Below, piece by piece: positions 3,316-50,578 of a stretch of DNA of 64,000 nt (its first letter is position 1; every line of letters starts with the position of its first letter). The DNA is taken from the NCBI GenBank assembly GCA_019359155.1, contig JAHHHV010000071.1, positions 62,001-126,000 on the forward strand, read 5' to 3'. Both the position numbers and the translations under genes were made by a program. Origin of the DNA: Pegethrix bostrychoides GSE-TBD4-15B. GTDB lineage: Bacteria > Cyanobacteriota > Cyanobacteriia > Elainellales > Elainellaceae. The notes beneath the pieces are model-generated. The model saw nothing but the letters and a program-made list of their open reading frames with translations, was not told where the DNA came from and did not search any database.

Positions 3316-4101
3316 AGCGATAACCTTAGGCGAGAGTGAGCAAGCGTGGATTGAGACAGCTACGATGTCTAGAGGCAGGTCGCGCAGCAGATTGGGTCAA
3401 GTTTGGTCAAGCACAATCTTAAGGCTAAGTGAATAATTCTGACCAACTGAGCCGCTTTGCCGAAAATGGATTCACAATAAAAAATATAAACACTAGATAG
3501 ATGAGATGGTTACTGAAACTTAGCGATTGAAATCATTATTCATCCGGACAATTTTTGATGGGCTGCCTCTTGTCTGCTCATCGGCTGCTCAGAGTTCAAC
3601 CCTAAACGGCTCTCAACAGCTTCAGTCGCTTCTGGCAATCTCTAGGGGCACTCATCCTAGCAGTCACTCATCCTAGCAGTCGCCAATCTCAGCAACCGCA
3701 GCCGGCACACTCATCCAGCTATCTACTCAATCATAATCTCTCATCACTTTTATTTATGCTGTTACTTTTATTGAGGCTGCGATGTTGGAGCTGCGAGCTT
3801 TGCCTCAACTCATTCAAGCTCAGGCTGAATTTGACTCAGGTGTTGGCGCATACAGTTTCCGCAATAGGCCATTTGGCAGAGTAGACTGATTTGCAGGGGC
3901 AGCATTTAGACTACATTTGGGGCATATCCAAATCTGAGGCGCAGAAATCTGAGGCGAAGACAAATCTGGTGCGCACAGAGTAGATGCCAGCCTGCTCTAG
4001 GGCTTAGAATGGGCGATCAGGAGATGCAAAAAGTCAGTAGCCGTAAATTTTTACGCCAATCACAATCGAACTATGCAGAGGGATTCTTCTGGAGGTGATC
4101 A
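3316..4101. other. Long spacer with tandem duplications
   Basis: This 786 bp spacer lies between divergent genes, and I see no coding region or RNA gene in it. A 16 bp unit, ACTCATCCTAGCAGTC, is perfectly duplicated at 3650-3665 and 3666-3681. A second near-duplication (AAATCTGAGGCG followed by CAG or AAG) is at 3930-3965. The final bases before 4102 carry a strong ribosome site, GGAGGTGA (4091-4098). Confidence 0.6.
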
Positions 4102-47339: not shown

Positions 47340-49400
47340 TTGAAGCGAGCATTTCTCAAGGAAGTTAAGCCTGTCTCTTCTGTTCTCTGTTCTCTGAATC
47401 AATCAGCGGATGTTGAAGCGGAAGCAGCCGAGCAGACTCAGTCTGGGGCAAGGCGGAGATTAAGAACCTCCGCTGCGATGGTGGGTCTGGCAATCTCGAT
47501 GGGCGCAACTGGTCTGTTGATGCCTCGTCACGGCGATGGTGCATCAGCAGCTGAATCAAACGAAACTGCTGCTTCGAGTTCACAGCCTGCCTCTCAGGTG
47601 GCTACGCTCACCTCAGATTTGCAGGGGCTAATTACAGCTCCACCCCCAGCCGCTAAAGCCGCAGGTCGTCCTAGTCTGACCTCTGCTGACTATGTAGTGG
47701 GGCAGGGACAAACTCTACAGCAGATCGCCCAGCGCTATCAAATCAGCGTTGCCGAGCTCGCCGCCGCCAATCGGATTTCGACCACGGCTGTGGTTCGACC
47801 CGGGCAAGTGCTGCGGGTTCCCGGGGCTGTACCTGTGGCTCAGTCTTCGCAAATGCTGGCACTATCTGAGTTAAGCCGCTTGCCCGCCCCCGATTCCACC
47901 GGTCAGGTGCAGGCACGCGATCAGGCTCTGAGTCGCCTCATGCAGGAACAGAGCAAGCTGAAAGAGCGCCTGTCCGAGCTACGCCGCCAGGATCAGCAGA
48001 GTGAAAGGGTTGCCTTAGCCGATTCAGCAGCGTTAGCACCAGCCGTGATGAACAAGCAGGCTCCTGCTGCTAGTCCGGCTGCCTCTGTGCTGGCACTGAC
48101 GCCAACTGTGCCCTCGGCGACTGTGCCGAGCGTCACCCCTACGCCCGAACTGGACTGGATGCAGGCAAATCGGTCGCTGAACATTCCGTCTGGCTTCAGC
48201 TCCAGCCCCGTAAGTTTGCCAAGTCATCCGGAGACAGGTGAATCAGCTTCAAGGCCATCAGTAACGCTGCCCAATTCGTCCAGCCCCAGTCCAGCCGTGA
48301 CGGCAATGGGCCTAAGCGCTGCTAGCGAGCAGGCTTATCAAGTGAGTCTAGGCGATACTGTAGCTCGGATTGCGCGTGCCCACAATGTTTCTCCCTCGGA
48401 GCTGATTTCTGCCAATCGCCTCAGCAATCCTGACGTGATTTTTGTCGGGCAGACGCTGAGGTTGCCAGCAGCTAGTCTCAGCAGCAATGGGACAGTGTCC
48501 ACGGTTTTACCTGCTGTTCCAGCTCAGATGCGGCAAGACCAGCTCCAGGCGGCTAGCCCGACGCGGCTTGCAGTCGTTCCTTCTACGCTGCCCTCTACGG
48601 GTTCTGAAGCATTAATGCCCGCTGCTCCCACGGTAGATGAGCCGTCAGGACGCAACCCCTATGTGCAAAATCTGCTCTCTGAGGTTAGAGCGCTGAGGGA
48701 ACGCCGCTCGCAGCAGGCTAGGGTTCAGCCGAACCGCGAACTGTCCGCAAGCGAGCAGGTGGCTCCAGAAACAGTTGCAGCTAGCCCTTCTGCTAGCCGG
48801 ACTGCGGCTGTTTTGAGTCGTGCAAGGCTAGAGTCACCGACGGTGCCAACAGTGCCAATGGTGCCAACAGTACAAGCTCAGAAAGAGCCAGCAGTGGTCG
48901 CTGTAGCGCCGCTCAATCCTGAGAGTTATGCGCCGCTGACCGAGCAGATTCCGGGGCGGATGGTTTCTCCTGATCTACCCGCGCTGCCCGGTGCCGATCG
49001 GTTTCTGCCTGACGGAACGCAGACGGGGTACATCTGGCCTGCCAAGGGTTTGCTGACATCTGGATACGGCTGGCGTTGGGGACGGATGCACTCAGGCATC
49101 GATATTGCGGCAGATGTCGGGACACCTATCTATGCGGCTGCTTCGGGTGTTGTCGAATATTCAGGCTGGAATTCAGGCGGCTACGGTAACATGGTTGAGA
49201 TTCGGCATACCGATGGCAGCATGACCCGCTACGCCCATATGAACGCACTCTATGTTCAGAAAGGTCAGCGCATTGGTCAGTCTGAGCAGATTGGTGAAAT
49301 GGGCAGCACTGGCTACAGCACTGGGCCTCACCTGCATTTTGAGGTGCATCCTGTGGCATCCGGTGCGGTTAACCCAATGGCCTACCTGCCTGCAAACTAG
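47340..49400 (+). CDS. LysM-domain M23-family peptidoglycan endopeptidase
   Basis: This 686 aa envelope protein probably cuts, or activates cutting of, peptidoglycan crosslinks (NlpD/EnvC-like). A hydrophobic segment at about 46-62 (AAMVGLAISMGATGLLM) could be a membrane anchor or signal. LysM repeats lie at about 117-160 (YVVGQGQTLQQIAQRYQI) and 332-375 (YQVSLGDTVARIARAHNV); a low-complexity Pro/Ser/Val linker follows, then M23 from about 575: MHSGIDIA, YAHMNALYV and GPHLHFEVH supply the zinc ligands. The start is TTG at 47340 with AGGAGG (47326-47331) eight bases upstream. A 9 bp tandem repeat at 48843-48869 adds VPT/VPM units. A structured leader precedes it and a terminator follows. Confidence 0.9.
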   Translation: MKRAFLKEVKPVSSVLCSLNQSADVEAEAAEQTQSGARRRLRTSAAMVGLAISMGATGLLMPRHGDGASAAESNETAASSSQPASQVATLTSDLQGLITAPPPAAKAAGRPSLTSADYVVGQGQTLQQIAQRYQISVAELAAANRISTTAVVRPGQVLRVPGAVPVAQSSQMLALSELSRLPAPDSTGQVQARDQALSRLMQEQSKLKERLSELRRQDQQSERVALADSAALAPAVMNKQAPAASPAASVLALTPTVPSATVPSVTPTPELDWMQANRSLNIPSGFSSSPVSLPSHPETGESASRPSVTLPNSSSPSPAVTAMGLSAASEQAYQVSLGDTVARIARAHNVSPSELISANRLSNPDVIFVGQTLRLPAASLSSNGTVSTVLPAVPAQMRQDQLQAASPTRLAVVPSTLPSTGSEALMPAAPTVDEPSGRNPYVQNLLSEVRALRERRSQQARVQPNRELSASEQVAPETVAASPSASRTAAVLSRARLESPTVPTVPMVPTVQAQKEPAVVAVAPLNPESYAPLTEQIPGRMVSPDLPALPGADRFLPDGTQTGYIWPAKGLLTSGYGWRWGRMHSGIDIAADVGTPIYAAASGVVEYSGWNSGGYGNMVEIRHTDGSMTRYAHMNALYVQKGQRIGQSEQIGEMGSTGYSTGPHLHFEVHPVASGAVNPMAYLPAN

Positions 49401-49434
49401 CTGGCTGACTTTCGCAGCCGATTGATTTCAAACG

Positions 49435-49458
49435 GGGAGTCTTAGAGGCTCCCTTTTT
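49435..49458 (+). terminator. Rho-independent terminator of the LysM/M23 gene
   Basis: GGGAGTCT pairs with AGGCTCCC (one G-U) across a 3 nt loop and is followed by TTTTT, 35 bp after the stop codon. Confidence 0.8.
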
Positions 49459-49490
49459 GCTGGCCGTTGCTGGCCAAACTAGCCCATTCA

Positions 49491-49537
49491 AAAAAGCAAA
49501 AAAATTGCCTGACCTCATAAGCCCCCGAGGTCAGGCA
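49491..49537 (-). terminator. Strong leftward terminator of an unannotated transcript
   Basis: TGCCTGACCTC (49506-49516) and GAGGTCAGGCA (49527-49537) form a perfect 11 bp stem. Read on the minus strand it is followed by ATTTTTTTGC and TTTTTT. No annotated minus-strand gene lies to the right until 54405, so a short leftward RNA from about 49540-49850 is implied. Confidence 0.8.
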
Positions 49538-49800
49538 GTCCACCTGTAAGGACGCTCTCCGAGTGGAAGACCTACAGCAGAACTCAATTGCCCCCTAGCT
49601 CTGCTGCGAATCTTCCGAATTGCGTTCTCCAGAAGTGAGTTCATTCTGGCTTTTGTCACCCCCGATCACGTCGCAGAATTCACGGAACTTCTAGGGTGAC
49701 TGCCGCCATCGCAATTCAAAAATCCGTGTTTTCACTTTCCCTATCTGTCGATCATTTGGGCAGTCCACCCGTACAGCCAGCGTTGGCGTACTCTACGGCG
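49506..49800 (-). ncRNA. Candidate structured small RNA (right end uncertain)
   Basis: Upstream of the leftward terminator the minus strand folds into consecutive hairpins: GTCACCC/GGGTGAC (about 49655-49706), CCAGAA/TTCTGG (about 49628-49650) and GGAAGA plus CAGCAGA with TCTGCTG plus TCTTCC (about 49564-49615). The element GGTGGACTGCC occurs twice (about 49534-49544 and 49757-49768). No known RNA family was recognised; 6S RNA and tmRNA were considered but not supported. The 5' end is unknown. A 37-codon frame inside it is listed separately. Confidence 0.4.
49531..49644 (-). CDS. Possible 37-residue peptide within the leftward transcript
   Basis: ATG at 49644 opens a 37-codon frame beginning MNSLLENAIRKIRSRARG and ending RPYRWTA. 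A purine-rich GGGGGTGA lies about ten bases upstream, and the stop codon falls inside the 5' arm of the terminator. The peptide is basic with a helical first half. No family is recognised, and the same DNA folds into hairpins, so it could be fortuitous. Confidence 0.25.
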   Translation of the reverse strand: MNSLLENAIRKIRSRARGQLSSAVGLPLGERPYRWTA

Positions 49801-49816
49801 ACTGTTCCGGGAAGCC

Positions 49817-49825
49817 TGCTACAAT
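49817..49825 (+). promoter_or_regulatory. Extended -10 promoter element of nusB
   Basis: TGC followed by TACAAT matches the extended -10 pattern TGnTAtAAT. A start near 49832 would give nusB a leader of about 20 nt. No good -35 is visible, which is usual for extended -10 promoters. Confidence 0.6.
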
Positions 49826-49852
49826 AGCCAAGCCTCTCACCCGGTTAACTCC

Positions 49853-50578
49853 ATGCAAGCCCGCCGCATTGCCCGCGAACTCGCACTTCTCAGCATTGGT
49901 CAGCTTCCGAATAAGCCTGAAAAGCTACAGGCTCAGCTGCTGCAAGATGTTGTGCTTGCAGCAGTACGTACCCTGACCACCGAAGTTCAGGATACGCTCG
50001 AAACGGCCTCGGCAGAGCTGAACCGCAGCAGCGACCGCCTGCTGAACAGCGAGACTCGCGCCGACAGCCTCGACAGCGCTCGTGCAATGGTCAGTGAGGC
50101 AATTGAGCGCACCCAGACTGCCATTAACCGAGTCGGCGCAGCGTTGGAGCTGCCAGAGTTTATTCAGCTTGCCAATCAAAAAGAAGTGCGTGCCTACGTG
50201 ATGGAGCTGCTTACTCAGACGCAGGCGCATCGCAGCGAAATTGATGCTCTACTCAATCAGTCGATGGTGGACTGGCAGATGCATCGTCTTGCCCGGATCG
50301 ATCAAGATATTTTGAGGCTGGCGGTTGCCGAAATGTGGCTACTCGGCACGCCGCAGCAGGTTGTGATTAATGAAGCCGTAGAGCTAGCCAAACGGTATAG
50401 TGGCGAGGAAGGCTTTCGGTTTTTGAATGGCGTTTTGCGACGGGTCAGCAGTCAGTTGAGTCAGGCTGATCATCCATCTGAACCGCTATCTGACTCCTTA
50501 TCTGAGCCTCTCAATAGCTCCGCTAAGACTGCGCTTGACCAGCAGCAATCTAGCCCGACGCTCAGGTCTGAGTTCTAG
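49853..50578 (+). CDS. nusB: Transcription antitermination factor NusB
   Basis: NusB with NusE binds boxA RNA and prevents premature termination in rRNA operons. The 241 aa protein has the helical NusB fold: [18 protein letters not shown] at the N-terminus, then [57 protein letters not shown]. It is longer than E. coli NusB (139 aa); cyanobacterial versions carry an inserted helical stretch (about 40-110) and here a disordered Ser/Pro tail with imperfect [10 protein letters not shown] repeats. ftsY follows 124 bp later, a common cyanobacterial order. Confidence 0.92.

Follow-up and report, generated by a model that had tools for sequence, protein, structure and literature searches.

The window analyzed here, a stretch of 64,000 nucleotides from the 5.72 Mb assembly of Pegethrix bostrychoides GSE-TBD4-15B, contains on its plus strand a gene for an M23/LysM peptidase (47340-49400) and nusB (49853-50578), both recognized by Pfam, with a gene for an SRP54/FtsY-type GTPase (Pfam) coming next after nusB. 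Between the stop of the peptidase gene at 49400 and the start of nusB at 49853, minus-strand open reading frames do not exceed 49 amino acids, and, as the first-pass annotation had noticed, no annotated gene feeds the terminator found on that strand. The hairpin of this terminator (49506..49537, minus strand) has the claimed perfect 11-bp stem (49506-49516 / 49527-49537) according to one hairpin search and 12 pairs according to a terminator scan, and it is followed by two T-runs (49490..49504, minus strand) consisting of 7 T (49504-49498), GC and 6 T (49495-49490). The further hairpins reported upstream are present as well, the largest of them being 75% complementary (49565-49584 / 49597-49616). 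The peptidase gene has a terminator-like site of its own at 49434-49454. The minus strand (335 nt) has a much lower folding energy than its shuffled versions (z = -4.0, with 0 of 100 shuffles as low). Sites resembling terminators, taken as a class, show no clear excess (5 versus 2.4 +/- 1.7 in shuffles), and the weight of the evidence comes from comparison.

A DNA search of 60 genomes, including the genome of origin, produces matches in 40 at E <= 1e-3, and in 55 at E <= 1, a loose limit that also admits short chance matches. For many relatives, the matching stretch begins near 49650 and reaches the terminator. Many genomes keep this terminator together with the 140 nt that precede it, which bears out the expected conservation. 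Of the interval originally delimited, 49491-49850, the terminator end is thus conserved, but about 49700-49850 falls outside the conserved gene. The conserved block and the match of a covariance model delimit on the minus strand a putative small RNA gene, about 139 nt in length (49498..49636). Its start at 49636 was placed at an invariant A (column 7 of alignment A1, which comprises 30 relatives), 7 nt after the -10 hexamer, and its end was placed at the T-run (49498). At the sequence level, these comparisons strongly support a hidden conserved small RNA gene that ends at the orphan terminator.

In the predicted structure, the closing stem is formed by TCTGGAGAACGC on the 5' side (49622..49633, minus strand) and GCGTCCTTACAGG on the 3' side (49543..49555, minus strand), which constitute helix 1 of alignment A3. 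The apical G-rich loop AGGGGGCAA (49588..49596, minus strand), the proposed seed 1, is identical in all 30 sequences of A1. The terminator hairpin (helix 7 of A3) provides the other of the two G-rich loops in the anatomy of the RNA, GGGGGCUUAU; this loop, GGGGGCTTAT (49517..49526, minus strand), in which GGGGGCTT is invariant in A1, is the proposed seed 2. Among 68 homologs, the apical loop contains GGGGGC in 65 and GGGGC in all 68, and the terminator loop contains GGGGGCTT in 66 and GGGGGC in all 68. The invariant blocks of the alignments are TCTG..GAACG, AGGGGGCAA, GCGT..TT.CAG and GGGGGCTT. The duplicated element to which attention had been drawn, GGTGGACTGCC, does occur twice in the window (49544-49534 and 49769-49759, within 15-nt copies that are 93% alike), but a role as a functional repeat was rejected, as the one sister genome checked has no equivalent second copy upstream (locus L003). 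The second copy (49759-49769), located upstream of nusB, is perhaps due to chance; the one-mismatch site at minus 2276 of L003 is, by its letters, a stretch of nusB coding sequence.

The fold is supported by covariation. Alignment A3 comprises 52 sequences aligned to the covariance model R1, which was built from the 30 relatives of A1; neither A3 nor the counts over 68 sequences include four opposite-strand matches or the divergent copies of loci L079 and L080. Standard pairs make up 92.6% of the paired cells of A3 and both-side changes are found in 31 of the 38 pairs, counts that lean to the structure because A3 was fitted to R1 and contains 14 of its 30 relatives. Double-change cells number 252 versus 61 in shuffles, the covariation score is 0.460 versus 0.227, and 0 of 500 shuffles, which do not preserve the relatedness of the sequences, reach the pairing, double-change or covariation values of A3. 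When the partners are slid by 1-3 columns, pairing falls to 34-49%. Among the individual helices, the closing stem has 11 pairs, 9 of them with both-side changes, and 95.1% of its cells paired, and the terminator helix shows both-side changes in 9 of 12 pairs. In A1, aligned by sequence alone, double changes occur in 15 of 38 pairs of a structure predicted on A1 itself. In the divergent members L066, L069, L078 and L081, read by eye, the closing stem is preserved although its letters differ. A compact, free-standing gene for a structured small RNA, about 139 nt long, is, on this comparative evidence, close to certain.

Searches for this gene with R1 at E <= 0.01 detected it in 146 of 388 Cyanobacteriia genomes and in 63 of 160 genera, nearly always as one copy per genome. 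In the family to which the window belongs, R1 matches are found in 33 of the 36 sampled genomes, the three misses being assemblies that are 68-82% complete. The model R2, refitted from 52 members, matched 148 of 388 genomes at the looser E <= 0.05, all within eleven sampled families, and under strict filters, with which distant members may be missed, no match was obtained in 240 of the 388. A sequence-pattern scan covering 84,980 species, each represented by a single genome, picked out 66 stretches; every one of them has a cyanobacterial title, although the pattern was written from this group and is therefore uninformative on more distant forms. The carriers include Elainella, Oculatella, Nodosilinea, Myxacorys, Leptothoe and Adonisia, genera which we take to be non-heterocystous and Leptolyngbya-like; Leptolyngbya sp. 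PCC 6406 and PCC 7375 also carry the pattern. On the best reading of these searches, the small RNA would be restricted to a clade of thin filamentous (Leptolyngbya-like) cyanobacteria. A mobile origin was rejected, with no match among plasmids or phages. In family f11, two genomes have two divergent neighbouring matches each (L079:3001-3137 and 3584-3697; L080:3001-3081 and 3489-3625), which have retained the terminator and its GGGGGC loop but have drifted elsewhere; more than one match is also found in other genomes of this family.

The position before nusB, given in the first-pass annotation as part of the description of the gene, holds for the window but not for its relatives. Among 29 other genomes, whose loci were tested with the NusB, FtsY and M23 proteins (flanks of about 1.5 kb or less), nusB lies alongside in one, locus L003 of the sister genome G004, where ftsY is present beside it too; the 140-nt block is thus kept while its neighbours change. 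A neighbour survey covered 54 loci, each with about 1.5 or 3 kb of flanking sequence as far as the contig permitted. In 22 of them the first downstream open reading frame, which points towards the terminator, falls into a single sequence cluster, the commonest neighbour found. This is a dapB-family cluster, the one member checked being DapB by Pfam; an example is L071:3160-3984, with genes of the same cluster in 21 other loci. Upstream, a divergent cluster (one member checked, without a Pfam match) is found in 17 of the 54 loci and a CbiC-type cluster (one member checked) in 15. The divergent cluster is exemplified by a 231-aa open reading frame at 1948-2640 of L072, the locus being turned to the strand of the small RNA. 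The dapB setting looks like the older arrangement, and either the gene or its flanks would have moved in the genome of the window.

Upstream of the conserved block, comparison of the 68 homologs supports two promoter elements. The first is a box with the consensus AAAnTTnCGTAnTTnTnnCGAnG (49669..49690, minus strand), which overlaps the expected -35 region and, in 63 of 68 homologs, begins 45-46 nt ahead of the block. Its 19-nt core has a mean of 0.96 bit per column, versus 0.08 bit in the upstream flank and 0.13 bit in the spacer. The register of the box was chosen by best match to the consensus, and the same procedure applied to 200 shuffled sets gave a mean of 0.21 and a maximum of 0.25 bit, with at most 16 of 68 sequences in two neighbouring registers. 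The second is the -10 element CAGAAT (49643..49648, minus strand), which has the form (C/G)ANAAT in 59 of 68 homologs, including the window, and lies 21-22 nt after the GTN10 unit of the box in 61 of 68. A simple promoter scan returned no sigma-70 site, and a -35 consensus is lacking. Class II activator sites of the CRP/NtcA type overlap the -35 region, as does this box at about -54 to -33, and the box is probably an activator site. NtcA itself was considered as the regulator and is not claimed, because the endings of the GTN10 unit are scattered (GTN10AC in 32 of 68; AA, AG or GG in 30; no unit in 6) and the strict GTAN8TAC is rare (3 of 68 upstream regions). The HLR1 motif of RpaB, KTTACAWW-N2-KTTACAWW, is absent from all 68 upstream regions, one half alone being present in 2. 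A regulon sharing the box was also rejected, since genome searches found no other promoter with it: matches to the box with <=2 mismatches were fewer than for the reversed control in 8 of 8 genomes, and among 82 box-like sites, the 11 inspected include none with a close CANAAT at the right distance.

The locus has, at the level of its letters, a promoter of its own, an intrinsic terminator and an intergenic position, as a trans-acting small RNA gene does. The explanation that accounts best for all of these observations, to which a probability of about 0.7 is assigned, is a small RNA gene of this clade that acts in trans through its G-rich loops. Transcription would start near 49636 from a promoter with the -10 element and the upstream box, to which a putative activator would bind, and would end at the intrinsic terminator at 49498. 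The predicted fold comprises two hairpins, a long one with a G-rich loop and that of the terminator, which carries the second such loop. The two nearly invariant GGGGGC loops would act as seeds in trans, base-pairing with C-rich segments of target mRNAs with no need of Hfq. In cyanobacteria, Hfq is not known to serve small RNAs, and where it does not, GC-rich loop seeds are a common means of pairing. In such a context, the nearly invariant unpaired loops favour pairing with C-rich targets, and this mechanism is held to be somewhat better than an even bet.

The loop complement TTGCCCCCT occurs at 62 sites in the genome, one of which is the gene itself, versus 9 for the reversed pattern, an excess that codon usage may explain. 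Thirty of the 62 sites were inspected: 2 lie 44-54 nt upstream of an open reading frame, as judged from rough starts, and 22 lie inside open reading frames on either strand, so that neither a target class nor a gathering at gene starts appeared in this sample, which constitutes a weak test.

Such a result could also be expected if the twin GGGGGC loops titrated or scaffolded an RNA-binding protein, as CsrB-type RNAs or 6S RNA do, a possibility that the occurrence of the same hexamer in two separate, almost invariant hairpin loops brings to mind. Titrating RNAs, however, usually carry many sites and this RNA has only two, and we know of no protein partner for it; protein titration remains the main rival to seed pairing, although an unlikely one. 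More doubtful still is a clade-specific global regulator, controlled by an activator with a dedicated box, in which the same GGGGGC in two loops would capture C-rich RNA, either a C-rich small RNA (sponge) or the CCUCC anti-Shine-Dalgarno sequence of 16S rRNA. GGGGG can pair with this CCUCC through one wobble, and the box has so far been found only at the promoter of the small RNA.

Alternatively, the RNA could be a diverged version of a cyanobacterial small RNA already described but missing from Rfam, such as PsrR1 or Sye_sRNA1. Rfam 15 contains no family that reaches its gathering score in the window; in 20 homolog loci, the sole match is a tRNA at L094:5664-5736, outside the RNA, and a loose search of 49380-49900 gives a single S10-Clostridia match (49806-49899, 14.3 bits versus a cut-off of 35.1), also outside it. 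6S RNA (RF00013) was rejected, the 6S gene of the genome being located at G000:C64:24060-24246 (96 bits) and the window having no match at the gathering score. The motif CACUCCUCACACC, which the available text of PMC4734099 gives as that of Yfr1, is found in 0 of 68 homologs, including the window. The length of PsrR1, 131 nt, is similar, and a table in PMC6202907 calls this RNA conserved in cyanobacteria. Nevertheless, R2 finds nothing under strict filters in the 240 genomes mentioned above, the dapB loci of 17 hitless genomes searched with unfiltered R2 give a best E of 1.4, HLR1 is lacking in all 68 upstream regions, and Sye_sRNA1 lies mostly by psbD or cobB rather than dapB, which makes a hidden kinship of this sort quite improbable. 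As far as their available text goes, PMC4734099, PMC6166021, PMC6202907, PMC13421787, PMC5295598 (an inventory of Acaryochloris small RNAs) and PMC6091082 describe no RNA that combines this length, promoter and setting. No small-RNA catalogue for Leptolyngbya-like strains was found in the literature searched, and the RNA may stand as an unnamed entry in a published list.

That the conserved element acts only in cis, as a terminator or antisense element for a neighbour and with no RNA of its own, would agree with the 22 of 54 loci in which the terminator faces a dapB-family gene at its 3' end, but is very improbable, as the M23/LysM gene already has its terminator-like site and as both the promoter and the 140-nt fold persist in genomes whose neighbouring genes differ. 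The alternative of a small protein or a dual-function RNA, raised by a 37-codon frame open in the window (codons 6-42 of the 49659-49531 frame, with ATG at 49644-49642 and, as originally described, a stop at 49533-49531 within the terminator arm), has a negligible probability, since the frame is not conserved in homologs: the ATG, made up of the last letters of the -10 element and a G and located upstream of the inferred RNA start, is in place in 26 of 68 (window included), the first in-frame stop comes anywhere between codons 0 and 58 or is missing within 60 codons (4 of 68), the longest other frames vary, and Pfam finds nothing. The 68 homologs thus support a non-coding gene, as expected of a trans-acting small RNA, and of the two possibilities first entertained, a conserved small RNA or a small protein, only the former is sustained (146 of 388 genomes; covariation, n=52). 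A widely conserved, structure-supported RNA gene is hereby added to a large cyanobacterial group, and with model R2, the promoter box and the two loops defined, its expression, regulator and targets each become directly testable.

With regard to known systems, RepG of Helicobacter pylori reportedly uses a C/U-rich low-complexity terminator loop as a seed against G-repeats; the proposed use of a terminator loop against a homopolymer-like target is similar, the loop being G-rich here, a mirror image. The fold of 6S RNA is one long hairpin, and the present RNA likewise has a long hairpin closing on itself, but the match to RF00013 lies elsewhere in the genome. PsrR1 (SyR1) reportedly pairs without Hfq and, like the RNA described here, is free-standing and of similar length. 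According to the available text of PMC6202907 and PMC13421787, it pairs with ribosome-binding regions and is under the control of RpaB through HLR1; the present RNA, compared with it by description only, differs in lacking that motif. Sye_sRNA1 of Synechococcus elongatus also has a conserved structure in many cyanobacteria but, by its description in the available text of PMC6091082, is longer (about 200 nt) and mostly adjoins psbD or cobB, whereas dapB is the frequent neighbour here. NsrR1 of Nostoc sp. PCC 7120 resembles the present RNA in being a small RNA that is intergenic and conserved in cyanobacteria, in ending at an intrinsic terminator and in having a GTN10AC-like promoter unit; in the available text of PMC6166021, however, it has about 110 nt, occurs in heterocystous strains and two close unicellular ones, and has GTRN8TAC overlapping its -10 element. 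Identity with NsrR1 was rejected, the box here being located at about -54 to -33 with no GTRN8TAC over the -10 element, the strict GTAN8TAC being rare, and the carriers being non-heterocystous. The small RNA of the window apparently represents a known kind, that of free-standing small RNAs, but an undescribed family.
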